From: a virus
DNA: 39,859 nucleotides
Reading direction: 5' to 3' (one strand)
Virus record (IMG/VR): IMGVR_UViG_3300017987_005481
Location: 1-39,859 of that record
Shown here: one piece after another, positions 1-20,834 of the stretch
Layout: each line of letters begins with the position of its first letter
Numbering within the stretch: position 1 is the first letter of the stretch
The notes under the pieces: generated by a model
Seen by the model: the letters and a program-made list of their open reading frames with translations, nothing else
Database searches by the model: none
What the model was told of the DNA's origin: nothing
Made by a program: the position numbers and the translations under genes

Positions 1-468
1 ATGTGCTACCGGGCTGAAACAATCGCCAATCGCTTTCTCAATATTGCTTCACTGAGCAATAAAAGCATTTCGCCAATGAAAATGCAAAAGTTGATTTATC
101 TTGCTCATGCCTATTGCCTCGTTTACCAAAAAAAACCCCTTGTAAACGAACTTTTTGAAGCATGGAAGTTTGGGCCAGTTTTACCTTCGATTTACCACGC
201 ATTCAAGAGGCACGTATCCCAGAAAATTGACAGGCAAATTCCCAAATTTGATGCACAAATTGACGATCCAAAAATCCTCAAGATTTTGGAGTTTATCTGG
301 GACAATTACGCTGATTTTCCAGCAGAAAAACTCTCAAACTGGACGCATGAACGCGGAGGACCCTGGGATCGTATTGTGAACGCGTCAGGAACACATTATC
401 GGAATCAGACCATTCCAAACGAATATATCCAGGAGTATTTTGAAAAGATGTTGGGAGCCGAACATTGA
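1..468 (+). CDS. Panacea-domain (DUF4065/SocA-like) protein, putative antitoxin, copy 1
   Basis: A 155-residue protein with the Panacea hallmarks: a Met-Gln-Lys-Leu-Ile-Tyr-Leu-Ala-His helix near residue 29 and the Glu-Ala-Trp-Lys-Phe-Gly-Pro-Val segment near residue 53. Panacea proteins are known as promiscuous antitoxins encoded beside varied toxins, including small membrane proteins, and as phage-borne SocA-like adaptors. The stop codon overlaps the TTG start of a small membrane protein, an arrangement typical of a coupled antitoxin-toxin pair. A diverged second copy lies at 2183-2648 and is frameshifted, so this copy is the intact one. The antitoxin role is inferred from family and context. 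The window starts at the ATG, so the RBS cannot be seen. Confidence 0.8.
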   Translation: MCYRAETIANRFLNIASLSNKSISPMKMQKLIYLAHAYCLVYQKKPLVNELFEAWKFGPVLPSIYHAFKRHVSQKIDRQIPKFDAQIDDPKILKILEFIWDNYADFPAEKLSNWTHERGGPWDRIVNASGTHYRNQTIPNEYIQEYFEKMLGAEH

Positions 469-4067: not shown

Positions 4068-4493
4068 GTGGCAGACAAGAAAAGTAAACATGGTGGCCAT
4101 GGCATTGGAAGGCCTGAAAAATGGACGGCTGATTTAATTGAAAAAGAAGCAGAACAGCTCATTGAGTGGTCTAAAACAGACGACGCAATTATCTTAAGAG
4201 AGTTTCCTGCATCGAGGGGGTACGGGCCACAATGGCTCACCTATTTAGCCGACAAATCCCCCACCTTTTCCGAAGCTCTTAAAATTGCCAGGTGTAATGT
4301 CGGAGTAAGAAGAGAGAAAATGGGACTAAGAGGCGATGTAGATGCCGGCATTGTAAAAGCGTCTCTAGCTACATACGACGATGAGCATCGAGCTATGCTT
4401 AAAGAGATGAAAAGGGCTGAGAAAGAGGGCGACCTCATGAAAGCTTTCTTAGCAGGTCAGCAGGCTCAAAGAGACATGGGAAAGGAAAACTAG
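4068..4493 (+). CDS. terS: Putative terminase small subunit
   Basis: A 141-residue protein with a GTG start and a CAAGGACG site upstream. The N-terminus is Gly/His-rich (Gly-Gly-His-Gly-Ile-Gly-Arg-Pro). A helical DNA-binding-type segment follows, with Ile-Leu-Arg-Glu-Phe-Pro-Ala-Ser-Arg-Gly-Tyr then Leu-Ala-Asp-Lys-Ser-Pro-Thr-Phe, as in small terminase HTH regions, and then a charged helical C-terminus for oligomerisation. TerS recognises the packaging site and hands DNA to the large subunit. Position and order support this; the large subunit lies past a minus-strand insertion. By motif alone it could be another phage HTH protein. Confidence 0.65.
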   Translation: MADKKSKHGGHGIGRPEKWTADLIEKEAEQLIEWSKTDDAIILREFPASRGYGPQWLTYLADKSPTFSEALKIARCNVGVRREKMGLRGDVDAGIVKASLATYDDEHRAMLKEMKRAEKEGDLMKAFLAGQQAQRDMGKEN

Positions 4494-4497
4494 CCCT

Positions 4498-4740
4498 TCA
4501 AAGAAACACCCTATAATCACACTTAAATACCTTAGCCAAACGCTTAGCGATGTCTTTTCCAATAGGTCTATGACCCCTCTCCATCTTTGAAATATTGTAT
4601 TGTGATACGCCGATCATCTCGCCAAGCTGTGCCTGGGTAAGATCTTCCCTTTTCCTTGCGCCAGCAAGACAAACAGATCCCTTTGGTCTACCACCAAACA
4701 CTTCTTCATGAAATTCGTCAGCACTAAAAAAAGCACTCAT
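4498..4740 (-). CDS. XRE-family helix-turn-helix protein
   Basis: An 80-residue protein. A classic HTH occupies about residues 32-70: Leu-Thr-Gln-Ala-Gln-Leu-Gly-Glu-Met-Ile-Gly-Val-Ser-Gln-Tyr-Asn-Ile-Ser-Lys-Met-Glu. Its start overlaps the stop of the DUF2442 gene in an ATGA arrangement, making it third in a minus-strand operon. It probably acts as antitoxin-like repressor of the operon by binding the palindrome at 5286-5330. Its stop lies 4 bp from the terS stop, so the two units converge. Confidence 0.85.
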   Translation of the reverse strand: MSAFFSADEFHEEVFGGRPKGSVCLAGARKREDLTQAQLGEMIGVSQYNISKMERGHRPIGKDIAKRLAKVFKCDYRVFL

Positions 4741-4991
4741 CTAATATCCCTCCCCATTTCATAGAGAATGTCGGGGCAGATATCAGCCCCATTAGGCCAG
4801 CAGATACTGCTAGGGTAATCAGGATCATCAAGAGATAATGTTTTAAAATATTCTAAATCTTTAAGGGACGAAAAAACTTCACCACCCTGGTTCACGATCT
4901 CCTCAAGATCTACAATCTTAAATTCTGCATTATCAAACTCCAAAAGCACCTTGTAATCTTTAAGATAAAAAAACCTGCTCACAGTATGCAT
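4737..4991 (-). CDS. DUF2442 protein
   Basis: An 84-residue protein starting at ATG 4991; a GTG one codon earlier is possible. It matches the DUF2442 pattern: Tyr-Lys-Val-Leu-Leu-Glu-Phe-Asp-Asn, Phe-Lys-Ile-Val-Asp-Leu near the middle, and Ile-Cys-Trp-Pro-Asn-Gly-Ala-Asp-Ile-Cys-Pro-Asp at the end. DUF2442 genes often lie next to DUF4160 genes in toxin-antitoxin-like pairs, as here. The molecular activity is not established. Confidence 0.8.
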   Translation of the reverse strand: MHTVSRFFYLKDYKVLLEFDNAEFKIVDLEEIVNQGGEVFSSLKDLEYFKTLSLDDPDYPSSICWPNGADICPDILYEMGRDIR

Positions 4992-4993
4992 CA

Positions 4994-5254
4994 CTACTCC
5001 AAGGGTTCAATTTTATTCAGAGGCTTTCGCTTTTCAGCCAGCTCCCAATTGCTCAACAATTCTTCTTTGTGAATAGAAGCCCACTCAAGCACCAACTTAA
5101 GCGCTCTTTTTGGAAGATTTCCCTCAATCATCTCGCAAGACTCAATAGAGATTAAACCAACAAACTCTTTGTAGTGTGCGTGAAAATGCTTAGGAGGGTG
5201 GTCTACATAGTACATTCTGATAATAATTCCCAGGAATCGGCTGATTTCAGGCAT
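4994..5254 (-). CDS. DUF4160 protein
   Basis: An 86-residue protein with the family signature Pro-Glu-Ile-Ser-Arg-Phe-Leu-Gly-Ile-Ile-Ile-Arg-Met-Tyr, then His-Pro-Pro-Lys-His-Phe-His-Ala-His-Tyr. The C-terminus has the usual Leu-Val-Leu-Glu-Trp-Ala and Asn-Trp-Glu-Leu-Ala motifs. It is first in the minus-strand operon, transcribed from the palindromic region at 5286-5330. It is a partner of DUF2442 in a TA-like module; which partner is toxic is unknown. The cassette interrupts the packaging operon. Confidence 0.85.
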   Translation of the reverse strand: MPEISRFLGIIIRMYYVDHPPKHFHAHYKEFVGLISIESCEMIEGNLPKRALKLVLEWASIHKEELLSNWELAEKRKPLNKIEPLE

Positions 5255-5368: not shown

Positions 5369-6118
5369 TTGTCGTTTATGTTCCATCTCATGACTTCAGA
5401 TTTTAGAAAAGTTGTTGAGATATACGCCAAGGATAATCCAAAGCTTTTAGATAAAGAGTGGCGATTATCAAAGAAGTCTGGGCTTTATTGGATAAAGGGT
5501 AAAGACGGAAAGCCTGTGCTTTTTGAACCCAACTGGGCGCAAATTGAGCTCTTGAAAGACCCTCACCCGCTGAAGATCATCCCCAAAAGCCGTCAGCTTG
5601 GCGTGACTACATTCTACGCCATTAACTACATCGATGACTGCATCTTCAATGAAACTCCGATCGACACGACGTTTATTGCTGACAGAAGAGAAAACGCTGA
5701 ACTTATCTTTGAGAACAAGGTCAAGTTTGCCTGGGAGCGGATGCCTGATTGGGTAACCAAGCTAAACCCAGCTTCCAAGGATTCAACGCGAATGCTTAGA
5801 TGGGCAAATGGGTCAAGCTACGTGGTAGATACCGCTCCACGCGGTGGAACGTTCCAGAGGCTTCATATCAGCGAATTTGGAAAGATATGCGCCAAATACC
5901 CAGCAAAAGCGCAAGAGATCATTGAAGGGGCGCTTGAGACGGTTGCGATAGGTCAGCAGGTGACTATCGAGTCAACGAGTGAGGGGAGAGGCGGGTATTT
6001 CTACGACATTTGCAAGCAGGCGCAGGAAAAGGCTGTTAAGGGAGAGGAGCCAGGTGAGATGGATTACAAGCTGTTCTTTTTCCCTTGGTGGAAGGAATCC
6101 ACATACACATTAAATTAG
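5369..6118 (+). CDS. terL: Terminase large subunit, ATPase half (split gene)
   Basis: 249 residues comprising only the packaging ATPase. Walker A-like Pro-Lys-Ser-Arg-Gln-Leu-Gly-Val-Thr-Thr is at 72-81, Walker B Leu-His-Ile-Ser-Glu-Phe-Gly at 165-171 with the catalytic Glu, and coupling motif Glu-Ser-Thr-Ser-Glu-Gly at 201-206. It ends after Phe-Phe-Pro-Trp-Trp-Lys-Glu-Ser-Thr-Tyr, which in related full-length terminases leads straight into the linker and nuclease domain. That domain is encoded separately at 9589-10389. The start is TTG 5369 or ATG 5378, neither with a clear RBS. It powers DNA translocation into the prohead at the portal. Motifs look intact, so activity in trans with the nuclease half is plausible. 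Confidence 0.9.
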   Translation: MSFMFHLMTSDFRKVVEIYAKDNPKLLDKEWRLSKKSGLYWIKGKDGKPVLFEPNWAQIELLKDPHPLKIIPKSRQLGVTTFYAINYIDDCIFNETPIDTTFIADRRENAELIFENKVKFAWERMPDWVTKLNPASKDSTRMLRWANGSSYVVDTAPRGGTFQRLHISEFGKICAKYPAKAQEIIEGALETVAIGQQVTIESTSEGRGGYFYDICKQAQEKAVKGEEPGEMDYKLFFFPWWKESTYTLN

Positions 6119-6126
6119 GAGAATGA

Positions 6127-6471
6127 ATGGGCAACGAAGCAAAAGATGAAAGAGCGTTCCACACCAATCTTATCAAAGAGATGTTAAGAGAGAATCAGCG
6201 GTTTCTAACGCAGTACGGGCAGGTACAGGAGCAAAAGCTTAGTAAGCTTAATGGATGTCTTCTTAAAGTTGAGAAGTCGCTAAAGAAGTACGATGAGGCG
6301 CTTAGGCTGTCACAAAAGCAGTTTGAGATCGTTGAAGAGACGCTTTGCAATGTTCTGCTAGCCATCCGTCAAAACGAGTATTTGCAAGCCTACTACCCAG
6401 AAAGCCAGGGACACCCTGCCGGTAAGTATGTCGGCAGACACCCTGTACAAGAGAGAAGGGACAAAAAGTGA
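6127..6471 (+). CDS. Hypothetical coiled-coil protein, first gene of the terminase island
   Basis: A 114-residue protein. An AGGAG site overlaps the terminase stop, giving tight coupling. Residues 10-85 look like a continuous helix with coiled-coil heptads (Leu-Lys-Val-Glu-Lys-Ser-Leu-Lys-Lys-Tyr); the tail is polar and basic. No family recognised. It overlaps the next GTG start. Confidence 0.55.
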   Translation: MGNEAKDERAFHTNLIKEMLRENQRFLTQYGQVQEQKLSKLNGCLLKVEKSLKKYDEALRLSQKQFEIVEETLCNVLLAIRQNEYLQAYYPESQGHPAGKYVGRHPVQERRDKK

Positions 6472-6836
6472 TCAGTGAATACACAAAACGATACACCGAT
6501 TATTTAGAGTCTGAAATTAGACGACTTCTATATGAAAATGAAAAGCTCAGAAATCAATTTGAAGTAAACAACCCGATCGAAACGTTTGATTTTGAAGATA
6601 GTTTTTCAAGAAACAGCTGGACAGTTCCAAGGCAGGCTTCACTTCTTTACAAGCAATCTCCAGAAGAATGTCAAACAGTTGTTCGTTTAAAGGTGGGAGA
6701 TCATCAATCAGATATGTTTTGTTCCGATCATATGGTTTTTCATGAAAATGTTCTTGAAGAGTTCATAAGAATATTTTTGCACAGAGTCTTTAGCGACAGG
6801 ATTGAGAAAGTAAAAAAAGAAACAAAAGAAAGGTGA
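6468..6836 (+). CDS. Hypothetical protein of the terminase island
   Basis: A 122-residue protein with GTG start in a GTGA overlap with the previous stop. The N-terminal 35 residues are helical and charged. The middle contains strand-like Thr-Val-Val-Arg-Leu-Lys-Val-Gly, and the C-terminal helix is basic. No family recognised. It is part of the co-directional cluster between the two terminase halves. Confidence 0.55.
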   Translation: MISEYTKRYTDYLESEIRRLLYENEKLRNQFEVNNPIETFDFEDSFSRNSWTVPRQASLLYKQSPEECQTVVRLKVGDHQSDMFCSDHMVFHENVLEEFIRIFLHRVFSDRIEKVKKETKER

Positions 6837-6837
6837 A

Positions 6838-7131
6838 ATGATGGCTCTTATTTTTTTATTGGCACTGTTAGCTGCTATCAATGTCTATTATGCTTTCAAT
6901 CGCGAGATAAAATACGTCGAGTATACGCCTGGATGGATCAGTGTAGAGGACGATCTACCTGATTATGGTGAAATGGTTATGACGTTTGACGGTAAAAGGG
7001 TGCGATATACTTCTGTCTATTTTGATAGGTACGGAAATTTTGTTGATTGCATCGGAGGAAAGATTGATTACTGGATGCCGAATCCAAAACCGCCGAAGCC
7101 GCTTAACCGGATGAAGGAGTATTTGGCATGA
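6838..7131 (+). CDS. DUF551 protein with an N-terminal membrane segment
   Basis: A 97-residue protein. Residues 2-18 are a hydrophobic anchor (Ala-Leu-Ile-Phe-Leu-Leu-Ala-Leu-Leu-Ala-Ala). Residues 33-90 are DUF551: Trp-Ile-Ser-Val-Glu-Asp-Asp-Leu-Pro, and at the end Asp-Tyr-Trp-Met-Pro-Asn-Pro-Lys-Pro-Pro. DUF551 is a common small phage domain of unknown function. It is one of four DUF551-type genes in and just after the island and the only one with a membrane anchor. Confidence 0.7.
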   Translation: MMALIFLLALLAAINVYYAFNREIKYVEYTPGWISVEDDLPDYGEMVMTFDGKRVRYTSVYFDRYGNFVDCIGGKIDYWMPNPKPPKPLNRMKEYLA

Positions 7132-7364
7132 CTTGGCTGGAAGAAAGAGGTCAATCAAAGGATGTTATTGAAGGGAGAGAAACAGACGTTTCTATGATAG
7201 CCAGCAGTCTTTACCGCCTAGTAAGAGAGGCGTATGAGATAAACAAGGTACCTTATGAAGTGCTTTTACGTCTTGAGTCATTAACACGCACACTCGACAA
7301 ATGCGAATCAGAAATTCAGTGGATCATTCAAGAGGTTGAAAGGGATTATTTAAATGAGGATTGA
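7128..7364 (+). CDS. Small helical hypothetical protein
   Basis: A 78-residue acidic protein starting in an ATGA overlap with the DUF551 gene. It is predicted as two or three helices (Ser-Met-Ile-Ala-Ser-Ser-Leu-Tyr-Arg-Leu-Val-Arg; Leu-Leu-Arg-Leu-Glu-Ser-Leu-Thr-Arg-Thr-Leu). No family recognised. Its position beside another two-helix protein is compatible with small counter-defence proteins, but nothing proves this. Confidence 0.55.
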   Translation: MTWLEERGQSKDVIEGRETDVSMIASSLYRLVREAYEINKVPYEVLLRLESLTRTLDKCESEIQWIIQEVERDYLNED

Positions 7365-7366
7365 AA

Positions 7367-7606
7367 ATGACTAAAAGCTCATTCAGACTAGATTACATAT
7401 CAGATTTTGATGAAGAAATAATTCAGAAAATGTCTGACATGCGCTCAAAATATATTGAATTGGAAAATTACGTTTCAGAGGCTTTCCCTTTGTTAGTGGA
7501 TGAAGATCTGGGAAGCTGTATGCGTGTATTTGAAGAGGCATTGACTCATCTTGAGCAATCGCAAATGTATGCGATCAAGATGCTTTGTTTGTTGGGGGAA
7601 AAATAA
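7367..7606 (+). CDS. Small two-helix protein, possibly Acb2/Tad1-hairpin-like
   Basis: A 79-residue protein. ATG 7367 has GAGG 7 bases upstream and is preferred to TTG 7361. The layout is a first helix (Glu-Glu-Ile-Ile-Gln-Lys-Met-Ser-Asp-Met-Arg), a short linker, then a second helix (Phe-Glu-Glu-Ala-Leu-Thr-His-Leu-Glu) ending Ala-Ile-Lys-Met-Leu. This loosely recalls the helical hairpin of phage nucleotide-sponge proteins of the Acb2 type. The similarity is at pattern level only; an unrelated helical protein is equally possible. Confidence 0.5.
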   Translation: MTKSSFRLDYISDFDEEIIQKMSDMRSKYIELENYVSEAFPLLVDEDLGSCMRVFEEALTHLEQSQMYAIKMLCLLGEK

Positions 7607-7611
7607 TTGAA

Positions 7612-7690
7612 TCGGTGTACCAGCTTAGCAAAACACCGAGTTTTACCTTGTGGTTTAATGGTACAAAGGTTCGAATCCCTCCTCGGCTTA
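7612..7690 (+). other. tRNA-like remnant with competing hairpin
   Basis: A D-loop-like TGGTTTAATGG (7651-7661) and a perfect T-loop core GGTTCGAATCC (7668-7678) are flanked by CCGAG (7636-7640) and CTCGG (7682-7686), as in an acceptor stem. There is no room for an anticodon arm, and the T-stem is poorly paired, so it is not a functional tRNA gene. CCGAG also belongs to ACACCGA (7633-7639), which pairs with TCGGTGT at 7612-7618, giving two mutually exclusive folds. It lies in the 113-bp gap between two genes. Confidence 0.4.
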
Positions 7691-7719
7691 CGAAAGGTTA
7701 CGAAATTTAAAGGAACTAA

Positions 7720-7947
7720 ATGGAAAACATTATCGAAGTAGACGGCAAATGCTACCAAGAAATACCGAAGGACAACGGCCGGATGCACTTGTCTATATCG
7801 CACGGATCAAGACCACCAACGTGGTCTGAGATAAAGGAGGCTCGTTATAAGTACCTACCTCAAGTAAAGTATGCAGCAATCATACTCCCACCCGATGAGG
7901 AGTACGTAGATGTGCATCCTTTTTGTTTTCATGTGTGGGAGATTTGA
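7720..7947 (+). CDS. DUF7694-like small phage protein
   Basis: A 75-residue protein. I recognise the pattern Met-His-Leu-Ser-Ile-Ser-His, Pro-Pro-Thr-Trp-Ser-Glu-Ile-Lys-Glu-Ala-Arg-Tyr and the ending Glu-Tyr-Val-Asp-Val-His-Pro-Phe-Cys-Phe-His-Val-Trp-Glu, found in many phage proteins of unknown function. An AAAGGAAC site precedes the ATG. It belongs to the terminase island. Confidence 0.65.
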   Translation: MENIIEVDGKCYQEIPKDNGRMHLSISHGSRPPTWSEIKEARYKYLPQVKYAAIILPPDEEYVDVHPFCFHVWEI

Positions 7948-7950
7948 GAA

Positions 7951-8136
7951 ATGATTTCAAAGCCGATCGGTGTATTTTTCTTAATTCTGTCTTTGTATTT
8001 GATAGGGCAGTTTGAAGGTGTTGAGGTGCTAAAACGCTGGGGTGCATATGGGTGCTTAGGCTGTTCGATATCCATTGTTCTTTTCGAGTTTAAATTCACA
8101 AGAAAGTTAGTTTATGGAGATGACGATGACACCTGA
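7951..8136 (+). CDS. Small membrane protein
   Basis: A 61-residue protein with two hydrophobic stretches, about residues 6-20 (Ile-Gly-Val-Phe-Phe-Leu-Ile-Leu-Ser-Leu-Tyr-Leu-Ile) and 33-47, and an Asp-rich C-terminus. It starts 3 bp after the previous stop. No family recognised. Its end overlaps a 23-residue micro-ORF. Confidence 0.5.
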   Translation: MISKPIGVFFLILSLYLIGQFEGVEVLKRWGAYGCLGCSISIVLFEFKFTRKLVYGDDDDT

Positions 8137-8185
8137 GGAGTTCTTAGAATTTAAAGAGAAAATGGTGTACGAGGGATTCAGATGA
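8114..8185 (+). CDS. Possible 23-residue micro-protein
   Basis: ATG 8114 opens a frame (Met-Glu-Met-Thr-Met-Thr-Pro-Glu-Glu-Phe-Leu) that overlaps the previous gene's end and stops in an ATGA overlap with the DUF551 gene at 8182. It is short, acidic and helical. It may serve only to couple translation between the flanking genes. Confidence 0.3.
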   Translation: MEMTMTPEEFLEFKEKMVYEGFR

Positions 8186-8538
8186 CTGAGTGGCAACCAA
8201 TAGAGACAGCTCCCAAAGACGGATCTGAAATTCTCGTCTATATAGATGGATTAAACTTTAAGGGATATAATTTAATATCTTGGGACAAGGAAAACAATTT
8301 CTGGTTGAGTGGCAAGTTTGATAGGTGGAATGAGTCAAGTATTTTGGGATGGATGCCTTTGCCTGAGCCTCCAGTTAAGTTGCATTTTTGTGGTGTTGGG
8401 TACCTTAAACCCTACATTTGTAAAGAAAAAGAGGGATACTTTTATGTTTCATCGTCTGGAACAAACCTCTGGAATCTGATGGTTAAATATTGCCCTTTTT
8501 GTGGCGAAAAAGCGCCGAGGTATCAAGATGAGAATTAG
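8182..8538 (+). CDS. DUF551 protein with C-terminal zinc-ribbon-like Cys pair
   Basis: A 118-residue protein. The N-terminal DUF551-type domain runs from Trp-Gln-Pro-Ile-Glu-Thr-Ala-Pro-Lys-Asp-Gly to Gly-Trp-Met-Pro-Leu-Pro-Glu-Pro-Pro. The C-terminal 45 residues end with Tyr-Cys-Pro-Phe-Cys-Gly, a half zinc ribbon seen in related phage proteins. An upstream Cys (Phe-Cys-Gly, Ile-Cys) could supply further ligands. Function unknown. Confidence 0.7.
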   Translation: MTEWQPIETAPKDGSEILVYIDGLNFKGYNLISWDKENNFWLSGKFDRWNESSILGWMPLPEPPVKLHFCGVGYLKPYICKEKEGYFYVSSSGTNLWNLMVKYCPFCGEKAPRYQDEN

Positions 8539-8743
8539 CACTCTGAAATGGAGTTCTGTAAGGGAAGATCCACCTCCTTTTAATGTGAAAGTATTGGTGA
8601 GGGTAGAGGACGGTGATGAGGTTGTTTATTTTGAAGATTGTCGTCAATTTAATGGCTTGTGGAAAAATGCAATAGACGATTGTGTAACACACTGGATACC
8701 GCTTCCAAAGCTGAAATGCCCTACATGTGGGGTTGTAAGCTAA
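8528..8743 (+). CDS. DUF551 protein
   Basis: A 71-residue protein. ATG 8528 with a GAGG site overlaps the end of the previous gene by 11 bases and is preferred over GTG 8501. The pattern is Trp-Ser-Ser-Val-Arg-Glu-Asp-Pro-Pro-Pro, a strand-rich middle and Thr-His-Trp-Ile-Pro-Leu-Pro, then Cys-Pro-Thr-Cys-Gly. Adjacent to another DUF551 gene, so local duplication is likely. Confidence 0.65.
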   Translation: MRISTLKWSSVREDPPPFNVKVLVRVEDGDEVVYFEDCRQFNGLWKNAIDDCVTHWIPLPKLKCPTCGVVS

Positions 8744-8845
8744 ATGCACTGGTCTGAGGTGTTTCTAATGTGCTGTTGCTGGCTCCTTTTCGTTGCTGGG
8801 GTCGGTTTTGTGGCTTGGCTTTGGAAAGTGATCTTGGTGAGTTAA
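8744..8845 (+). CDS. 33-residue membrane micro-protein
   Basis: ATG 8744 directly follows the previous stop. The product is almost entirely a hydrophobic helix (Cys-Cys-Cys-Trp-Leu-Leu-Phe-Val-Ala-Gly-Val-Gly-Phe-Val-Ala-Trp-Leu-Trp), a plausible single-span membrane peptide. It stops 2 bp before the next ATG. The exact tiling between neighbours supports a real gene. Confidence 0.5.
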   Translation: MHWSEVFLMCCCWLLFVAGVGFVAWLWKVILVS

Positions 8846-8847
8846 GA

Positions 8848-9150
8848 ATGCTTATAAAAAACGGAGAGATCCATCCCCTTGATGAAGGCTTCGCTTACAT
8901 TTTAGAAGAAGGCGATTTTGATGAAAACGCCATCGAAAAGATGAATAATAGATTTTTTAAAAAGTATGCAGAATATCTGCTAAAAACAGATTATGAAAAT
9001 ACTTTGGATCTCTTGACTTGGGCACTCCAAAAATTATACTTAGGGGAGGATGTTCAATTTATACATCGCCCCCCTATGTATTGTGATCCACTTCAAACAA
9101 AAAGCACATATGCCATGAAATTTAAAAGAAAACCTGATGATTATCTTTGA
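8848..9150 (+). CDS. Hypothetical acidic helical protein
   Basis: A 100-residue protein starting at ATG 8848, 2 bp after the membrane micro-protein. An earlier in-frame start at 8770 would overlap that gene completely and is rejected. It is mostly helical, with Asp-Glu-Asn-Ala-Ile-Glu-Lys-Met and Leu-Leu-Thr-Trp-Ala-Leu-Gln-Lys-Leu, and has a basic tail. No family recognised. Confidence 0.5.
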   Translation: MLIKNGEIHPLDEGFAYILEEGDFDENAIEKMNNRFFKKYAEYLLKTDYENTLDLLTWALQKLYLGEDVQFIHRPPMYCDPLQTKSTYAMKFKRKPDDYL

Positions 9151-9163
9151 GGAGTTTTATTGA

Positions 9164-9349
9164 ATGGGAAGTGAGCTATCACGTGAACACATACTTAAAA
9201 GTCGGTGCTTATATAGTGAGGACTGCAAGTGTGGAAATAAATTTCAGGTCTACGCGCAGGAAGACAATGATCCTGAATACTATACTGATGTATGGGTGGA
9301 GTGTGATCAGTGCAATGGTTTGGTACATTTTTCACTTCCAGTAAACTAA
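9164..9349 (+). CDS. Small zinc-ribbon-like protein
   Basis: A 61-residue protein with GAGGAG upstream of the ATG. Cys-Lys-Cys-Gly near residue 21 and Cys-Asp-Gln-Cys-Asn-Gly near residue 48 make a CxC...CxxC set suited to one zinc ion. It probably binds nucleic acid or protein in a regulatory role. An alternative overlapping frame (9147-9344) lacks such features. Confidence 0.6.
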   Translation: MGSELSREHILKSRCLYSEDCKCGNKFQVYAQEDNDPEYYTDVWVECDQCNGLVHFSLPVN

Positions 9350-9406
9350 GGGTTATATCTGGTTCCAGGTATAAACATGTATAACTTACTATAAACAAGG
9401 ACGTTT

Positions 9407-9592
9407 ATGACAGAGCTAACGATCACGATTAAAGTCGTGGAACAGACCTACAAGCAAAAGTTTCTGATGTACGATGAATACAAGTTCTTAGCTGATGACC
9501 CAGTGGTTAAGCATTGCATCAATGAGGCTTTGTCAAATGCCAGGTTTGAGCCGGAAGACATTAAAGTAAGGGCTTTGCTTCAGATTAAATGA
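9407..9592 (+). CDS. Small hypothetical protein coupled to the terminase nuclease half
   Basis: A 61-residue protein with AAGGACG before the ATG. The N-terminal strand is Leu-Thr-Ile-Thr-Ile-Lys-Val-Val; the rest is helical and acidic. Its TGA overlaps the ATG of the terminase nuclease gene, so its translation probably drives that of the nuclease half, which lacks its own RBS. No family recognised. Confidence 0.55.
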   Translation: MTELTITIKVVEQTYKQKFLMYDEYKFLADDPVVKHCINEALSNARFEPEDIKVRALLQIK

Positions 9593-10389
9593 AAGACTAC
9601 CAAGCCTATTTCGACAAGCTATGCAAAGATCACGACATTAGGCTTTCGCAAGGTCAAAAGAACTGGTATATCAAAAAGGCCTCAACGCTCGGCGATGGTA
9701 TGAAGACGCAATACCCCTCCACACTTGATGAGTGCTGGGAGGTCGCAAATGACGGCCTATGGTACGGAAAAGGCATCTCTAAAGCTCACAGTGAGGGGTG
9801 TATATGCTCTGTGCCGTATGAGCGTTTATCTGAGGTGCATACGGCTTGGGATCTTGGCAGACGTGACCCTACGGCCATCTGGTTCTTTCAATTGGTTGGA
9901 AAAGAGATCAGGTTAATCGACTACTACGAAAACAATTTTGAGGACATATCCCATTATATCACCGTCCTTAGGCAAAGAAACTACATCTATGGGAAACACT
10001 ATGTCCCACACGATGCAGGAATAAAGTCGTTTCAGACTGGCCGGTCTCTGGTAGACTTTGCCAGGGATCTTGGAATCAAATTGATCAAGCTTGAAAGGGA
10101 AAATGACATCATCCCGGCCACCAACTACGCACGATCGATGCTGGATCGATGCTGGTTTGATAAGGATAAATGCGCTCAGGGGATCAAGGCTTTGGAGAAC
10201 TACCGCAAAGAGTGGTCAGAGAAGAATCAGTGCTACGTGGAAAGAGAGTTGCATGACTGGGCATCTCATGGGGCATCTGCTTTTAGATACCTTGGAAGGG
10301 CTGAGCAGTTAATATCTGGTGGAACGTCTGATAAAGCTCTCAAAGAGCATTTAGACAGAATGGATCGGTATCGAAGGAATAGGATATGA
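9589..10389 (+). CDS. terL: Terminase large subunit, nuclease half (split gene)
   Basis: 266 residues beginning exactly where the ATPase half stops in related terminases: a linker with Gln-Gly-Gln-Lys-Asn-Trp-Tyr-Ile-Lys-Lys and Gln-Tyr-Pro-Ser-Thr-Leu-Asp-Glu-Cys-Trp. The RNase H-fold nuclease follows, with acidic residues in Ala-Trp-Asp-Leu-Gly (Asp88), Val-Pro-His-Asp-Ala-Gly (Asp142) and Leu-His-Asp-Trp (Asp223). The usual Ala-Asp-Ala in the final motif reads Ala-Ser-Ala, so one conserved acid is absent. The start is in an ATGA overlap. It should cut concatemeric DNA during packaging and would need to assemble with the ATPase half encoded 3.5 kb upstream. Confidence 0.9.
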   Translation: MKDYQAYFDKLCKDHDIRLSQGQKNWYIKKASTLGDGMKTQYPSTLDECWEVANDGLWYGKGISKAHSEGCICSVPYERLSEVHTAWDLGRRDPTAIWFFQLVGKEIRLIDYYENNFEDISHYITVLRQRNYIYGKHYVPHDAGIKSFQTGRSLVDFARDLGIKLIKLERENDIIPATNYARSMLDRCWFDKDKCAQGIKALENYRKEWSEKNQCYVERELHDWASHGASAFRYLGRAEQLISGGTSDKALKEHLDRMDRYRRNRI

Positions 10390-10928
10390 GTGATTACTTG
10401 CATGGTTTTTTAATGATTTTTGATTATGACGGTTGTGGTGTCGAGAAAAGGGTTCAGGAGGTTTCATCGAGGTTATCAGACTATAGCATGGAAAAAGAGA
10501 TTTCTGTTCCCATGACATTCATTAAATTTAGAAAGAAATGGGGTTCTGTTCCTGTTTTACTTCAGAGTCTGGAAGAGTTTGACTGGAGTGGTTTTTGGGA
10601 TGTTGTTTTTTATGGTGATGATGAATCTGGTTATCCCTCTTTCTATAATTTGAAAGACTATCATAGAAAAGTAGAAGCATCCAGGGTGTTTCTGGTTCAG
10701 GGTTTTAATTGGATAGACGCTGAGTCAAGCCCTCCTCTTCATAGCGATGAGGTATGGGTTTTTGGAAAACCTTTATCAAACGGTGAGAATTATGATAAGG
10801 GTCGCCATGAAGATGGAAGATGGTTTCTTGGAAAAACCGATGTAGCTCTTATAGGTGTAACGGATTGGTCGCCACATCCTGAGCCGCCTGAATGGGTTAA
10901 AAAAGAAACAATGGCAATGATGAAATGA
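10386..10928 (+). CDS. Large protein with C-terminal DUF551-type domain
   Basis: A 180-residue protein starting in an ATGA overlap with the terminase nuclease gene. Residues 1-100 are unrecognised, with many aromatic and acidic residues. Residues about 105-172 follow the DUF551 pattern, from Phe-Asn-Trp-Ile-Asp-Ala-Glu-Ser-Ser-Pro-Pro to Val-Thr-Asp-Trp-Ser-Pro-His-Pro-Glu-Pro-Pro. It is the fourth DUF551-type gene in this region and the only one downstream of the nuclease half. Confidence 0.6.
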   Translation: MSDYLHGFLMIFDYDGCGVEKRVQEVSSRLSDYSMEKEISVPMTFIKFRKKWGSVPVLLQSLEEFDWSGFWDVVFYGDDESGYPSFYNLKDYHRKVEASRVFLVQGFNWIDAESSPPLHSDEVWVFGKPLSNGENYDKGRHEDGRWFLGKTDVALIGVTDWSPHPEPPEWVKKETMAMMK

Positions 10929-11337: not shown

Positions 11338-13416
11338 TTGCCACGGATGGCAGATTTCGCCTCGATCGAACAAGACTACAATGATTTTTGGCAGCGTTCA
11401 GAAAGGTATTGGGTAAACTATACTTCCAATGCCCTTAAAAGCTTGCAGGCCTATACAGGCCGTACATGGACGTCCAATGAGATTTCACGTCTATTGGATG
11501 AAGGTCGCGATCCTTCAGAATACAACCTCATTCGCTCAACCGTAAACTTCTTCTCTGGTTACGCTCGAGACAACATAAAATCTACAGTGATCGCTCCGAT
11601 GGAGGGTTCTGACGAGAAGACTGCCGATCAGCTCAACACGGTTGTTAAGTACGTATTCGACAAGGGAGATGGTGACCAGTTCCTATTGCAAGGCTTTGAC
11701 GATGCTTTGAAAACAGGCCTTTCTCTTGTCGGTCTTTGGATCGATTACTCAGAAGATCCTGTCTTTGGGGATATCAAGTTTTATAAGCGCTCGTACAACT
11801 CTTTCATTATCGACCCTAACTTTACCCGTCTGGATTTGTCTGACGCATCCGAAGTGCTTCTAAGGGACTTCCTTACACGTGAAGACGCTAAGGCTCTTTT
11901 GCCTTTTGTCGATCCTAAAGTGATCGATCAGACTCCGACGGCTACATTCGACAACAAGTTCCAGCAATACAGGCCAAATAAGAACCGTTTCGACTCAGAT
12001 GATTTGATCACCTACGATAGCTACTACAGACGTACATCAAGGCAGGTACAAGAGATCGTCGACATGTCTACCGGAGACATCCTGCTTAGAAACGGTAGTC
12101 CATCCGAGACGGAAGAGCATGAAAGGCTAGTTGCCATTGCAAGAGAAGGCGGTATTAATGCCGAGATCATGAATCGTAGCAAGCAGTATGTTGAGCTGAA
12201 TGTTCTACTTGGCGGCCGTGCTGTCTATTCCGGTGAAGATCCAACTGGTCTTGATGATTACCCACTCACCCTTGTGGCCGGTTATTTTGAGCCTCAGCTT
12301 GATGACTTTGGATTAAAGATACAAGGCTTTGTCCAACCTCTTATCCCTGCTCAGAGGAGCTTTAACAGGCGTCTTCTAAGAGCACAAGACATCATGGATA
12401 CCAGCCTCAATACCGGGATGCTCTACAAAGTTGGTGCTGTCGCTGATGAGAAAGCAATGAATCGTGTTGGTGTCGGAAATATTCCGGCTCGTGACGAGGC
12501 AGACCTTGACCGTGACTTTAAGCCTATCCAGATGGGTCAGGTGCCTCCAGGCTGGCTTGAGTACGCTCAGACGATTAACACGCTATTCAACGGAATTTCA
12601 GGCGTTAACGAGTCGATGCTCGGTGACGATGAAGGTGGTAATACCCAGGTTTCAGGAAGACTTGCAGAGGTAAGGGCTGCTAACGGTTTACGAGCGAATC
12701 GTGCGATTTTCGATAATTTCGAGCGCTCGCAACGCTATCTCACTAAAAAGGTAATGTACACGGTACAACTAAACTGGGGACCTGGCAAAGTCGCTCGTAT
12801 TATCAATGAAGAGCCGACACAGCAGTTCAATGACGAGTCTTTTGAGCGTTACGATGCTGTGATCAAGCAGGGTGTGAAGTCTCAGTCTCAAAGAGACGCT
12901 TTCTATTTTGAGCTTCTAAGGGCAGTAGAGCTTTTCGGTCCAGAAAAGATCCCTGTCGATCTGATCATTGAAAACATGCCGATGGTCGGCCACTCAGAGT
13001 TGATGGAGCGCATCGAGCAGGTTAATCAACAGCAAGAGCAGATAGATCTGCAACAACAGCAATTGCAGATTCAGCAGATCCAACAACAGCTGGAGCTTGT
13101 CCAGTCACAGATTGACCTGAACAAATCAACGGCTAACGAAAGAGATACAAGAGGTCTTGCAAATTTAGGTCTAGAAGGGGAAAGAGAGTCTGAACAAATA
13201 CAAAATATCGCTCAGGCAAATCTCGATAGAGCTAAGACGCTTGCAGAAATTGAAGGCTTAAAAGCTGACAACATTCAGAAGATCGTTTCCTTCCTTCAGT
13301 TCTTAAGGCAGCAAGAGCAATCAGAGTTTCAAGAAAATCGCGCGAAGAACATCGAAGTTTTTAGCGCTATCGATCAAGAGTCACCACAACAACCACAACA
13401 ACAGGGAGGTCTGTAA
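11338..13416 (+). CDS. Portal protein, P22 type
   Basis: A 692-residue protein of P22-like portal size. The N-terminal region (about 1-90) includes Asn-Leu-Ile-Arg-Ser-Thr-Val-Asn-Phe-Phe-Ser-Gly-Tyr; the central core has Tyr-Asn-Ser-Phe-Ile-Ile-Asp-Pro-Asn near 160 and a Gly-Asp-Asp-Glu-Gly-Gly-Asn-Thr-Gln-Val-Ser-Gly loop near 430. Residues about 560-690 are a Gln-rich helical barrel or coiled coil. TTG 11338 is chosen because AAGGAAGG lies 6 bases upstream; ATG 11347 would be 15 bases away. The dodecameric portal forms the DNA channel at the capsid vertex and docks the terminase. TAATG overlap with the next gene. Confidence 0.9.
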   Translation: MPRMADFASIEQDYNDFWQRSERYWVNYTSNALKSLQAYTGRTWTSNEISRLLDEGRDPSEYNLIRSTVNFFSGYARDNIKSTVIAPMEGSDEKTADQLNTVVKYVFDKGDGDQFLLQGFDDALKTGLSLVGLWIDYSEDPVFGDIKFYKRSYNSFIIDPNFTRLDLSDASEVLLRDFLTREDAKALLPFVDPKVIDQTPTATFDNKFQQYRPNKNRFDSDDLITYDSYYRRTSRQVQEIVDMSTGDILLRNGSPSETEEHERLVAIAREGGINAEIMNRSKQYVELNVLLGGRAVYSGEDPTGLDDYPLTLVAGYFEPQLDDFGLKIQGFVQPLIPAQRSFNRRLLRAQDIMDTSLNTGMLYKVGAVADEKAMNRVGVGNIPARDEADLDRDFKPIQMGQVPPGWLEYAQTINTLFNGISGVNESMLGDDEGGNTQVSGRLAEVRAANGLRANRAIFDNFERSQRYLTKKVMYTVQLNWGPGKVARIINEEPTQQFNDESFERYDAVIKQGVKSQSQRDAFYFELLRAVELFGPEKIPVDLIIENMPMVGHSELMERIEQVNQQQEQIDLQQQQLQIQQIQQQLELVQSQIDLNKSTANERDTRGLANLGLEGERESEQIQNIAQANLDRAKTLAEIEGLKADNIQKIVSFLQFLRQQEQSEFQENRAKNIEVFSAIDQESPQQPQQQGGL

Positions 13417-13628
13417 TGGGAGCTAATAAAGGCTACGGTTCAGCAGTTCCTCAGGGTAAAGGTCGCGGTATGTACAGCGTTAATTCGCCAAACAGCCCGG
13501 CGCCAGTGCCTATGAAAGGTTCTCAGTTGAACAACAGATCTAAGCTTCAGGGTCAAGGTTCCATGAAGGTTAGAGAAATGATGAAACAGGAAGCAAAGGC
13601 GGAAAATCAACGTGGTCGCGGAATGTAG
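13416..13628 (+). CDS. Small basic Gly-rich virion-region protein
   Basis: A 70-residue basic protein rich in Gly, Ser, Asn and Lys (Lys-Gly-Tyr-Gly-Ser-Ala-Val-Pro-Gln-Gly-Lys-Gly-Arg-Gly). The start is a TAATG overlap with the portal stop. Probably disordered; may accompany the portal or bind DNA. No family recognised. Confidence 0.6.
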   Translation: MGANKGYGSAVPQGKGRGMYSVNSPNSPAPVPMKGSQLNNRSKLQGQGSMKVREMMKQEAKAENQRGRGM

Positions 13629-14004
13629 TGGGTTAATACTTCCCTCGAAGTATGCCGAGAAAAAATTAAGTGATAAGGGTGTGCTTAAAGCAAGGGTTAA
13701 TAAGCAGGTAGATCGTTTCTTAGACGATCATCAGCATATTGACCACCCTTACTTCATCTTAATGAAGGCAAACAACCAGGGTACCCACATGGTTGGGGCT
13801 GACCCCAACAAGATTTCTGCAACACTTGAGTATTTCGAGATGAAGCCACCGTTTATCACTCGGACGATGGTTTTCTGGGTAGACAACTCAAGAGGGCTGA
13901 TCACTTGGCTCTGGAGGGTTACTCCCGATAAGAAGGTGATCTTCAACAAGACTTTTGCTGAGTCTTGTAAAGACATCTTACGGGTGAAAGAGCCGCCATC
14001 TTAA
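13612..14004 (+). CDS. Hypothetical protein between portal and scaffold
   Basis: A 130-residue protein, GTG start overlapping the previous gene by 17 bases; the exact start is uncertain. It has strand-rich segments such as Thr-Arg-Thr-Met-Val-Phe-Trp-Val-Asp and Trp-Leu-Trp-Arg-Val-Thr-Pro-Asp. Position suggests a head morphogenesis accessory protein. No family recognised. Confidence 0.55.
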   Translation: MVAECSGLILPSKYAEKKLSDKGVLKARVNKQVDRFLDDHQHIDHPYFILMKANNQGTHMVGADPNKISATLEYFEMKPPFITRTMVFWVDNSRGLITWLWRVTPDKKVIFNKTFAESCKDILRVKEPPS

Positions 14005-14128
14005 GGGCGTTTATGGTGTCGCCGACCGGACCTTTTTCGTGACTCCACGGAAATGGTGAACGGGCGTTTTCACAAGTGTCGCCGACTTTGAAGGGCGTAA
14101 TTTTTGGGCGTTAAACATGGAGGTTTAA
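14005..14128 (+). promoter_or_regulatory. Repeat-bearing non-coding spacer before the scaffold gene
   Basis: GGGCGT occurs at 14005, 14062, 14093 and 14106. GTGTCGCCGAC occurs at 14016-14026 and 14076-14086, exactly 60 bp apart. Between the latter, TTTTCGTG and CACGGAAA (14034-14053) form an 8-bp stem with a 4-base loop. The spacer therefore looks like a duplicated structured unit of about 60 bp. It ends in the GGAGG site of the scaffold gene. Function unknown; a regulatory RNA element or protein-binding site is possible. Confidence 0.5.
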
Positions 14129-14758
14129 ATGTCAGACACACCTGAGGCTGCCGCCGAAGCCGAAACTACACAAGAGGCTCCAAAAGAGGAGTCGCAAACA
14201 GAGCCGAAAGAGGAGAAGAAACAAGTTCCTCTTGAGGCTTTGGAAGCTGAAAGGAAAAAGCGTCAAGAAGCTGAGTACCAGGCTAAGTGGTACCAGGAAC
14301 AGATAGCTAGGGCTTCTCAGGCAAAACAAGAGCCTGAGCAGGATGAAGACGAATACACCAAGCAGATTAAGCAGGAGATTCGTCAGGAGTTAAGACAGGA
14401 GCTTCAGAATAAGTCTGAGCAACAGTTCTTAGCCAGTCATCCGGAAGCTGCCCACGCTATTGAAACTAAGCTTGCGCCGATCCTTCAGCAGAAGCCGCAC
14501 CTAGCCTATTCGATCCAGTATGCGGAGAACAGGTATGAGGCGGCGATGGATTTAATTGAGAAGTATTCTCCTAAGGCTGCAAGCGAAAGTGTGAAGAAAA
14601 AGATCGAGGATTCCAGCAAAAAACCTGGCTCTCCGGCTTCTACCGGAAAGGCCGGAGGGATTGGAAAGTCTGAGATGCTCGATCGGATGAAGAAAAATCG
14701 TCGTGAATTCTCGCACTATCGCGCACAGCTCAGGGGGAGACAGCCTAACATTCTATAA
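14129..14758 (+). CDS. Capsid scaffolding protein
   Basis: A 209-residue protein. An acidic Ala/Glu/Gln-rich N-terminus is followed by long coiled-coil helices (about 28-100, with Glu-Ile-Arg-Gln-Glu-Leu-Arg-Gln-Glu-Leu). The basic C-terminus (Asp-Arg-Met-Lys-Lys-Asn-Arg-Arg) is the usual capsid-binding element. Directly before the major capsid gene, with a GGAGG site. Scaffolds guide prohead assembly and then leave the shell. Confidence 0.85.
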   Translation: MSDTPEAAAEAETTQEAPKEESQTEPKEEKKQVPLEALEAERKKRQEAEYQAKWYQEQIARASQAKQEPEQDEDEYTKQIKQEIRQELRQELQNKSEQQFLASHPEAAHAIETKLAPILQQKPHLAYSIQYAENRYEAAMDLIEKYSPKAASESVKKKIEDSSKKPGSPASTGKAGGIGKSEMLDRMKKNRREFSHYRAQLRGRQPNIL

Positions 14759-14770
14759 CAGGGAGGTTAT

Positions 14771-15709
14771 ATGGGCGTTTCAACAACAGCTGATATCAAT
14801 CCAGAGGTTGATAAGTATTGGGATGGTGTGCTAATTGACCGTGACAGGCAGTGGTTTTCACACTTGCTATTTGGTCAGGTTCGCAAGATTCCAATGAAAA
14901 ACAGCTCTACGCTGGTAGCGAGAAAATACGACAATTTAGATGACACACCAGCCAGTTTGACCGAAGGAGTCACTCCGGCTTTAGATGATGTCACCAAAAA
15001 CGACATTGAAATTGGATTGCAGCAATTTGGTAAAGCGGTTGCGATTTCCGATAGAGTGAATATCGAAGTTCAGGATGAGACCGCTGAGGAAATTGCAGAT
15101 ATGCTTTCTCAGAATATGTTCGCCATGCTGGACAAGGTCACAAGAAATACACTGCAATCCACAGCAACGCAGTTCGACTGCATGAACGGTAATGCCACAC
15201 CAATCAGCGGTGTGACTGAATTGACAGAGCTTGATATCGACGAGGTGTTGGATCACTTATTTGGAAACAACGCATTGAGGATGACACCATCTCTTGATGC
15301 TTCCACAGGGATTCAGACAAGTCCGATCGATGCTTCTTACTGGGCGATCATTCACTCTGATTTGAGAAAAGACTTAGAGGCTTTATCGTCTTTTGTCCGC
15401 AAGTCTCAGTACTCAACTCCAAGAGAAGCTCTGCAGAATGAGCTTGGTTCGACCAACTACATGCGATGGGTGTACACCACTGAAGCTTTCAAGTCTTCTA
15501 CGAACATCTACTCAAACTTCGTGTTTGGACAGAATGCTTATGCCATGGCTGACATCGATGATGTAGCCACAGAGATGATCATCAAGCCTTTAGGATTTGG
15601 CGAGGATTATCTTGACCAAAGACAGACGATGGGTTGGAAGGCTCTTTATGGGGTCGGTATCATCGACGATGGCAAGATGGCTAACCTACGTGCAATTGCA
15701 TCAACTTAA
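14771..15709 (+). CDS. Major capsid protein, N4-gp56 family
   Basis: A 312-residue protein. The order of features fits the N4-gp56 family: Lys-Tyr-Trp-Asp-Gly-Val-Leu early, Gly-Gln-Val-Arg-Lys-Ile-Pro-Met-Lys-Asn, Leu-Thr-Glu-Gly-Val-Thr-Pro near residue 63, and near the C-terminus Ile-Ile-Lys-Pro-Leu-Gly-Phe-Gly-Glu-Asp and Leu-Asp-Gln-Arg-Gln-Thr-Met-Gly-Trp-Lys. It builds the icosahedral HK97-fold shell. A very strong GGGAGG site fits high expression. Confidence 0.88.
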   Translation: MGVSTTADINPEVDKYWDGVLIDRDRQWFSHLLFGQVRKIPMKNSSTLVARKYDNLDDTPASLTEGVTPALDDVTKNDIEIGLQQFGKAVAISDRVNIEVQDETAEEIADMLSQNMFAMLDKVTRNTLQSTATQFDCMNGNATPISGVTELTELDIDEVLDHLFGNNALRMTPSLDASTGIQTSPIDASYWAIIHSDLRKDLEALSSFVRKSQYSTPREALQNELGSTNYMRWVYTTEAFKSSTNIYSNFVFGQNAYAMADIDDVATEMIIKPLGFGEDYLDQRQTMGWKALYGVGIIDDGKMANLRAIAST

Positions 15710-15720
15710 GGGAGGTATAG

Positions 15721-16431
15721 ATGACCGCTTCTAACTTTAATGAAAACTACATGCGCTCCTATGCCGGACACTTTGAGTCTGATGGAGGCGCATACGATTT
15801 GGTGGTTCCTTTCGAGCCCCATTGCATCAAGCTGTACAACTACACGAAGTACGGTACTGACGGAACAAACGCTGAGTGCATCTGGTTTAAGGACTTTCCT
15901 GCGGCTGATGCCCTTGTAAAGGTTGTGATTGAAAACGATGGCGGATCTGACCGTCAGAGTTTGGATCTGTTGACCTCAAATGGTTTTACCACCAACAACA
16001 CAGATGGTGGCGTAACAGATACTCATTTGGCAATCTCGGGTGCCACTCAGGCTAGTCCCTGTGTGATCACGACTGCGGCTCACGGTATCACTGTGGGAGA
16101 AAGAGTGAGATCCAGGATCACAAAGGTATTGGGGATGACAGAGCTCAATGATGTCTCTCGCAACCCGTACCTTGCCGAAGCTCTAAGCTCTACTACTCTT
16201 GCTTTGTATGACCTCAACGGTAATGCGATCGATAGTAGCGGTTTCACAGCTTACAGCTCAGGTGGTCAGTTCAACAACCTGAACAAGACAGGCGATGACA
16301 AGGTTCTTTACGATCCACCAGTCTATCGACTAACTCTTGGTACAGGTGTTGTAGGTGCCGACGGCGATGAGATCTATTTCGAGGTCTTTGGATACAACAA
16401 ATATGAAGATTTGGGTGATATCGACGCCTAG
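15721..16431 (+). CDS. Structural protein with an E1-FCCH-like beta domain
   Basis: A 236-residue protein. Residues about 115-185 match the domain annotated in phages as ubiquitin-activating E1 FCCH: Val-Ile-Thr-Thr-Ala-Ala-His-Gly-Ile-Thr-Val-Gly, then Met-Thr-Glu-Leu-Asn, Leu-Ala-Leu-Tyr-Asp and Thr-Ala-Tyr-Ser-Ser-Gly-Gly. This is a beta-barrel surface module, not an enzyme. Located just after the capsid gene, it is likely a capsid decoration or vertex protein. The same module occurs in the protein at 18351-20558. GGGAGG site. Confidence 0.7.
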   Translation: MTASNFNENYMRSYAGHFESDGGAYDLVVPFEPHCIKLYNYTKYGTDGTNAECIWFKDFPAADALVKVVIENDGGSDRQSLDLLTSNGFTTNNTDGGVTDTHLAISGATQASPCVITTAAHGITVGERVRSRITKVLGMTELNDVSRNPYLAEALSSTTLALYDLNGNAIDSSGFTAYSSGGQFNNLNKTGDDKVLYDPPVYRLTLGTGVVGADGDEIYFEVFGYNKYEDLGDIDA

Positions 16432-16442
16432 ATAAATTTCTA

Positions 16443-16527
16443 GAGGGGAAGGCAAGGAGGCCAACCCCTCATTTAACAATTTTATATGACGGGTTACCCC
16501 TCATATTAGATAGGAAACCCCTCATAT
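16443..16527 (+). promoter_or_regulatory. Hairpin plus three CCCCTCAT repeats in the capsid operon
   Basis: GAGGGG (16443-16448) pairs with CCCCTC (16465-16470). Inside, after symmetric AA pairs, GGC pairs with GCC, leaving the loop AAGGAG, which looks like a ribosome-binding core. ACCCCTCAT recurs at 16464, 16496 and 16517, so any of three copies could pair with the single GAGGGG arm. It lies between the capsid-proximal gene and the next gene. It may limit read-through or stabilise the capsid mRNA. Confidence 0.5.
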
Positions 16528-16549
16528 AAATTAATAGCATGGAGGCTAT

Positions 16550-17038
16550 ATGCCACGAGGCAGACAAAAGAAAGATCAAACTCAGGTCTTGGACGATCAA
16601 ACCCAGGTCCGAAGTTTGCCACAAAAAAACCAGCAGATTGTCAACGTTGAGGTAAAAGATGTCGTCGACCTTTCAGAGCTTCCACTTGAGACAATTGAGG
16701 ATTATCAAAACTATGCCGTAGAGGCTAGAAAGCAAAGACGTCCAATAAGATTCATCCCTCACGATATGTACCCGATGCAAAGGGTGAAGTTTCGTCGTGT
16801 GGATAATCAGAAAGGATCACCTGCAAAGATCAGGTTCAGGTCAGGCAAGCACTTGCTTGATTACAAAGCAGAGATTGCAGACGGGGAAGTTTTAGACCTT
16901 CCAATCCCTGTGATCGAGTACATCAACAGCAGGCAGGTGGATCGTTACAAACAGGTAAAACACTCTGACGGCACATCAGATACTGTGTACAGCCATTCAG
17001 ATCCCAGATTTTCATGCCAACCGCACTATGAGGGGTAA
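16550..17038 (+). CDS. Hypothetical head protein
   Basis: A 162-residue protein with a Gln/Lys-rich N-terminus. It then has a compact basic domain (Arg-Pro-Ile-Arg-Phe-Ile-Pro-His-Asp-Met-Tyr-Pro-Met-Gln-Arg-Val-Lys-Phe) and ends Arg-Phe-Ser-Cys-Gln-Pro-His. TGGAGG precedes the ATG; the stop overlaps the next start as TAATG. Position after the capsid genes suggests a structural or assembly role. No family recognised. Confidence 0.6.
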   Translation: MPRGRQKKDQTQVLDDQTQVRSLPQKNQQIVNVEVKDVVDLSELPLETIEDYQNYAVEARKQRRPIRFIPHDMYPMQRVKFRRVDNQKGSPAKIRFRSGKHLLDYKAEIADGEVLDLPIPVIEYINSRQVDRYKQVKHSDGTSDTVYSHSDPRFSCQPHYEG

Positions 17039-17676: not shown

Positions 17677-17690
17677 GAGAGAGTAAAGAG

Positions 17691-20824: not shown

Positions 20825-20834
20825 GGAGACAAGG

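Follow-up and report, generated by a model that had tools for sequence, protein, structure and literature searches.

The stretch of DNA considered here, called the window below, is a virus record of 39,859 bases (IMG/VR record IMGVR_UViG_3300017987_005481, taken at full length), whose homologs were searched in IMG/VR, GenBank phages and prophages. In the window, the large terminase (TerL) is encoded by two genes, one for the ATPase domain and one for the nuclease domain, which lie on the same strand and are separated by other genes. An earlier note, made from the sequence alone, had proposed such a split into two intact genes, and comparison with one-piece relatives bears it out.

The two halves of TerL

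The upstream gene (5369-6118) is a complete TerL ATPase domain. As the earlier note had described, it holds the Walker A, Walker B and coupling motifs and ends at the linker. The deviant Walker A motif reads K73-S-R-Q-L-G-V-T-T, the Walker B/catalytic Glu region ISEFGK (with E169) and the coupling motif IESTSEGR (with E201, S202 and T203). K73, R75, Q76, G78, E169, E201, S202 and T203, which are invariant among 43 homologs, are all kept. The C-terminal end is ...FFFPWWKESTYTLN, where the interdomain linker begins. The product has 260 homologous stretches in one-piece TerL, and in PHROGs it matches phrog_2 (terminase large subunit, 1.6e-17). T4 gp17 is matched by profile (5e-08) and is also the best Foldseek hit (TMq 0.71) of the AlphaFold2 model (pLDDT 90.8).

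The downstream gene (9589-10389) is a complete TerL nuclease domain. Its product starts within the linker, with the N-terminus MKDYQAYFDKL, and matches phrog_2472 (1.9e-51). Since the last 47 residues of the ATPase half also match the start of phrog_2472, this family already spans the split. The AlphaFold2 model (pLDDT 93.2) is closest in Foldseek to the TerL nucleases of D6E, G20c, SPP1 and P22, and D88, D93 and D142, invariant in homologs, are all kept. The earlier note had credited this half with the RNase H-fold acidic motifs; on a strict count two of the three positions stand, the third being S230. Position 230 is presumably that of a metal ligand, as it lies three residues after the conserved His in the C-terminal helix, as in RuvC-like nucleases in general. 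Pfam gave no clear model for either half.

In hundreds of phages, the counterpart of both halves is one and the same one-piece TerL, of the 933W/Stx-phage type. The matched parts are 33-36 nucleotides (nt) apart in the relatives' continuous open reading frame (ORF), versus 3,470 nt in the window. The search against full-length terminases, which the earlier note had suggested, allowed the junction to be aligned: about 5 linker residues are missing in the window, and the two halves cover the rest of TerL. The window does not, therefore, encode TerL as a hinge-joined single polypeptide but as two ORFs, one with its stop codon at 6116-6118 and the other with its start at 9589. The G+C content (GC) is 0.464 in the ATPase half, 0.463 in the nuclease half, 0.460 in terS and 0.464 in the portal gene, versus 0.397 in the island between the halves. 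Different origins of the two halves were considered and rejected: the domain trees place the window differently only with weak support, and the GC is equal.

A survey with hidden Markov models (HMM) took in 406 loci, some of which overlap, so that its counts refer to loci and not to independent phages. One-piece TerL was present at 286 loci, and halves in separate ORFs on only 4 contigs, namely the window, L082 (IMGVR 3300021363_000012) with the near-identical L242 (3300021968_000005), and L257 (3300014838_000079). No second TerL, which the earlier note had named as possible counter-evidence, was found in this survey. Likewise, the searches brought up no unbroken terL in a close relative of the window, the best unbroken relatives standing at 44-50%. 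Several candidate cases were discarded. Vibrio phage VPMS1 and Sinorhizobium phage PBC5 both turned out to have one-piece genes, loci first taken as 'nuclease only' proved to hold full-length TerLs with another ATPase type, and L032 differs from L029 by a 1-base frameshift.

Other variations of TerL were met on the way. In up to 96 loci (L002-L081 and others), the ATPase type that accompanies the same nuclease domain is another, shorter one, which speaks for domain shuffling at the TerL hinge over a long time. In L278 / L305 (IMGVR 3300020017_000422), a stretch of ATPase coding region lies on the minus strand inside terL, by an internal inversion or an assembly error. The profiles phrog_26724 and phrog_2472 both fall short of the length of a TerL and adjoin each other near the coupling motif, a hint that other TerLs may be split elsewhere in the protein.

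Gene order in the packaging region

The features of the region are collected in Table 1. The order in the window is terS - ATPase - small genes - g61 - nuclease - small genes - portal.

Table 1. Coordinates of the features in and around the split terL of the window
Feature	Position	Strand	Remarks
Likely terS (small terminase)	4068..4493	+	homologs just upstream of one-piece TerL: L085 50%, L084 41%
HTH / DUF2442 / DUF4160 three-gene cassette, toxin-antitoxin-like	4498..5254	-	Pfam HTH_3 6.7e-12, DUF2442 3e-08, DUF4160 1.2e-21
terL-ATPase half	5369..6118	+	TTG start, TAG stop, 249 aa; Walker A, Walker B, coupling motifs
ATTAAAT copy 1	6109..6115	+	chance-level; not credible as junction repeat
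Stretch between the halves (island)	6119..9588	+	3.47 kb, about 12 small tightly packed genes, GC 0.397
Small coiled-coil-like gene	6127..6471	+	weak coiled-coil Pfam matches only; Shine-Dalgarno (SD) TTAGGAG overlaps ATPase-half stop
DUF551 gene	6838..7131	+	PF04448 5.6e-06, above cut-off
DUF551-like gene, C-terminal zinc-ribbon-like CPFCG	8182..8538	+	phrog_924 5.5e-07; family HMM 4.4e-17
DUF551-like gene	8501..8743	+	PF04448 0.0054; family HMM 1.9e-11
g61, 61-aa gene	9407..9592	+	TGA stop overlaps nuclease ATG; homologs upstream of terS/terL
ATTAAAT copy 2	9584..9590	+	chance-level; out of frame on joining
ATGA stop/start overlap, presumed termination-reinitiation coupling	9589..9592	+	sequence
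terL-nuclease half	9589..10389	+	ATG start, TGA stop, 266 aa; RNase H/RuvC-like
DUF551-like gene directly after nuclease half	10386..10928	+	PF04448 0.03; family HMM 2.4e-11

The GC of the island is similar to that of the small genes past the nuclease half (0.389). No HNH gene or remnant was detected in the island by Pfam, PHROGs or tblastn with the HNH relatives, Rfam gave nothing of note there, and the island contains no tRNA, hence no tRNA-linked element. Two of its gene types can be followed in relatives. Homologs of g61 occur in 64 loci with TerL, upstream of it in 64 cases and downstream in 0, at 537-2142 bases before TerL and adjoining terS. In L082, the stop of g61 overlaps the start of terS, whereas in the window it overlaps the start of the nuclease half, through the ATGA sequence already pointed out in the earlier note. 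As to the DUF551 genes of the window, three are in the island and one directly follows the nuclease half; in relatives their usual place is between the terL and portal genes (28 lie downstream of terL and 16 upstream, most of the latter far away). None of the remaining island genes has a homolog in the loci. Since g61, normally found before terS, and DUF551, normally found after terL, now lie between the halves, a rearranged gene order would fit the observed arrangement better than a simple insertion of cargo. Insertion of outside cargo would not explain g61, whereas a tandem duplication with complementary loss, or a swap of neighbouring blocks, would leave the observed order. The possibility that the island is the former pre-terS block was tried and could be tested in part, on g61 (pre-terS) and the DUF551 genes, the only ones with homologs in the loci. 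Thus, the idea of the domain boundary as an insertion site holds in that insertion there is recurrent (HNH genes in L082/L242 and L257, see below), but the island of the window appears to be rearranged and does not look like a simple insertion. The three-gene cassette, which is encoded on the other strand and separates terS from the ATPase half, indicates that more than one insertion has occurred in the packaging region.

The heptamer ATTAAAT had been placed by the earlier note at 6110-6116 and 9583-9589 and proposed as a short homology for recombination. It does occur near both junctions, with the corrected positions given in Table 1. However, the window contains 15 copies versus 11 +/- 3 expected in shuffles, and joining the halves at ATTAAAT leads to a wrong frame (STYTLNERLPSLFRQ...). 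Recombination at this repeat finds no support, given its chance frequency and the frameshift on joining.

Further away, a SocA/Panacea-domain antitoxin-like gene occupies the left end of the window (1-468; Pfam 8.7e-18), and the portal, major head and tail genes of the morphogenesis module are open. L407 (IMGVR 3300029267_001187), from another IMG/VR sample, is 100% identical to the window over 11,990 bp (window 11424-23413). It begins just inside the portal gene, beside the rearranged packaging region, and leaves the junctions uncovered.

Fissions at the same linker in other phages

L082 and L242, from two samples, differ by one mismatch in 8,624 bases. The insert of L082 consists of one HNH gene (HNH_3, 8.8e-09), and that of L257 of one related HNH gene (5.9e-10); both genes belong to phrog_20891 (4e-24 and 8e-23, respectively). 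In L082 and L257, the stop of the ATPase half overlaps the HNH start, the ATG of the nuclease half sits within the final codons of the HNH gene, and the HNH ORFs fill the inserts of 0.5-0.6 kb. The position of the break is common to the splits: it lies past the GYR/TYT position and ahead of the IVSKE block, in a linker of 10-15 residues. Relatives with other cargo at the same site, for which the earlier note had recommended a search, are therefore available, as are neighbours with a fused gene. The sister of L257 is L270, which has an unbroken TerL with 93% amino acid identity (support 100/99), and the unbroken neighbour of L082 is L250 (88%). Hence, the two marks of a split by a homing endonuclease, an unbroken close allele and an endonuclease in the insert, are both present for L082 and L257.

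A tree joining L082 and L257 as monophyletic was rejected (p-AU 0.0023) and the window falls outside that clade in the trees, so that the linker has undergone at least two fissions, and with the window probably three. Comparison of L257 with L270 gives dN/dS values of about 0.08 (ATPase) and 0.11 (nuclease), like those of unbroken pairs; by this measure, the L257 halves are under purifying selection. The two halves do not have the same distance to L270. Synonymous divergence (dS) is 0.28 in the nuclease half, with 97% DNA identity, versus 1.24 and 83% in the ATPase half, and the two genomes are 92-100% identical in several blocks elsewhere. This shows a recombination boundary at the TerL linker, the place that the HNH gene occupies. 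It agrees with a report that nuclease genes mark boundaries of inter-phage exchange, terminase neighbourhoods being rich in homing endonuclease genes (PMC10448857). The hinge is thus a recurrent fission site, most likely opened by homing endonucleases.

Origin and significance of the split

The following course of events can be proposed. In the ancestor of the window, an HNH homing endonuclease, or recombination at the domain boundary, would first have opened the linker. A later rearrangement would then have put accessory genes and the pre-terS gene g61 between the halves. A single gene cluster on one strand would now give two polypeptides, one for the ATPase and one for the nuclease domain; these would most likely come together again non-covalently on the portal, at the interface between ATPase and nuclease, and so build the packaging motor. 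In T4 gp17 this interface covers >1000 square Å (PMC9958956), and an interface of this type could hold split halves together. Moreover, enzymes split by homing endonucleases can stay functional: Aeh1 NrdA is fully active, and natural splits also occur in T4 topoisomerase (gene 60) and in gene 43 of phage 25 (PMC2988022). A working two-subunit terminase is favoured because the L257 halves are under purifying selection and the predicted folds are intact. Judged from sequences and models, function of the halves as a two-subunit motor is plausible, and we lean towards fission in this phage, with the two chains forming a working motor non-covalently.

Several observations weigh against this proposal. 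Residue 230 of the nuclease half is Ser, where 210/216 relatives (97%) have Asp. Furthermore, T4 gp17 domains without the hinge keep ATPase and nuclease activity but lose translocation completely (PMC9958956). The proposal is weakened by this reported need for the hinge as well as by S230. The nuclease half of the window is also among the most divergent: in a leave-one-out count of residues that deviate at columns with at least 90% conservation, the window scores 5/48 (ATPase) and 7/30 (nuclease), versus 1/48 and 0/27 for L082, although it is not alone among the divergent TerL members. The lone mismatch between L242 and L082 turns TAC into the nonsense codon TAA within the ATPase half of L242 (L242:3504-3506; L082:8220-8222), to be read as an error or as a sign of a decaying split terL. 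Lastly, as the island has no HNH gene, a homing origin of the window's split can be proposed only by analogy.

S230, the 7/30 changed nuclease columns, the L242 nonsense codon and the hinge requirement in T4 (PMC9958956) would all be expected if the split had inactivated packaging and was so recent that the halves still persist in what is a defective prophage or the remnant of a phage. Such decay nevertheless appears unlikely. Both frames are fully open despite a very divergent lineage, D88, D142, K73 and E169 are kept, and so are the stop/start coupling and the SD sites. In addition, the portal, major head and tail genes are open, the L257 halves are under purifying selection, and the identical L407 segment, found in another sample, indicates that the phage is in circulation. 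An assembly artefact, with two phage genomes or misplaced fragments wrongly fused and a one-piece terL in the real phage, would agree with the single metagenomic record and with the start of L407 at window 11424, short of the junctions. It is very improbable, as it requires two separate false junctions (ATPase/6127 and g61/nuclease), each with a clean stop, SD or ATGA overlap, without a remnant of the missing pieces, and as the L082 split is present in two samples (1 mismatch in 8.6 kb).

The halves could also be exons joined at the RNA or protein level, group I introns and inteins being common in terL of other phages: ICP1 (PMC10448857), Bastillevirinae (PMC11878797), Campylobacter phage IBB_35 (PMC3322345) and cyanophage Mic1 (PMC7156551). 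There too terL is a hot spot of mobile DNA, but it is spliced back, whereas no splicing element was found here. In particular, no Rfam intron was detected in the window island or the L082 insert, at the gathering threshold and up to E 5. The HNH ORFs of L082 and L257 leave no space in their inserts for a ribozyme core. The 12 tightly packed genes of the window island and the lost linker residues do not suit an intron or intein, and neither the TAG stop of the ATPase half nor an insert made of many separate ORFs suits an intein. An unrecognised element of this kind is thus hardly to be expected. Finally, a tandem duplication of the terminase module may have been followed by complementary loss, copy 1 keeping terS and the ATPase half and copy 2 keeping g61 and the nuclease half. 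This is a route to the split, compatible with fission and not an alternative to it. It would explain why g61 (pre-terS in 64/64) directly precedes the nuclease half, why each half is followed by DUF551 genes (6838, 8182, 8501 and 10386), and why the stop of g61 overlaps a start codon in both phages, that of the nuclease half here and that of terS in L082. Nonetheless, no remnant of the lost parts is seen and few island genes have homologs in relatives, so that the donor order is unprovable; we retain this route as a tentative, rather doubtful possibility.

The window resembles the one-piece 933W/Stx-type TerL and T4 gp17-like terminases in its ATPase motifs, most nuclease motifs, domain order and folds, but it has two genes 3.47 kb apart, a broken hinge and S230 for the usual Asp. 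An essential gene is likewise split in two by mobE in Aeh1 nrdA and by mobA in T4 gene 60 (PMC2988022), and in L082 and L257 the split contains an HNH gene; here, however, the target is terL, and the 12 genes of the window's island include no HNH gene. In Enterococcus phage iF6 (PMC10054541), a terL fragment is also set apart by endonuclease genes, but only a 95-aa piece is separated there, with no clean ATPase/nuclease domain split. iF6 is the nearest case, and TerL as separate ATPase and nuclease genes was not found in the literature searched, which was mostly without subscription papers. Introns and inteins in terL and homing splits of other genes were already known; what is new here is the fissions at the same TerL linker with an HNH insert (L082/L242 and L257).

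A two-part packaging motor may thus have been made repeatedly in nature. That tailed phages repeatedly evolved a two-subunit TerL, the hinge being dispensable when the domains recognise each other, is to our mind evenly balanced between holding and failing. Hinge-transmission models of packaging cite the loss of translocation on separating the T4 gp17 domains (PMC9958956). Natural splits at the hinge in three lineages would show that non-covalent contact suffices or that packaging works another way. Split terminases would be ready-made two-component systems in which motor and nuclease could be studied apart from each other, and homing endonucleases would here be turning an essential single-chain machine into subunits.

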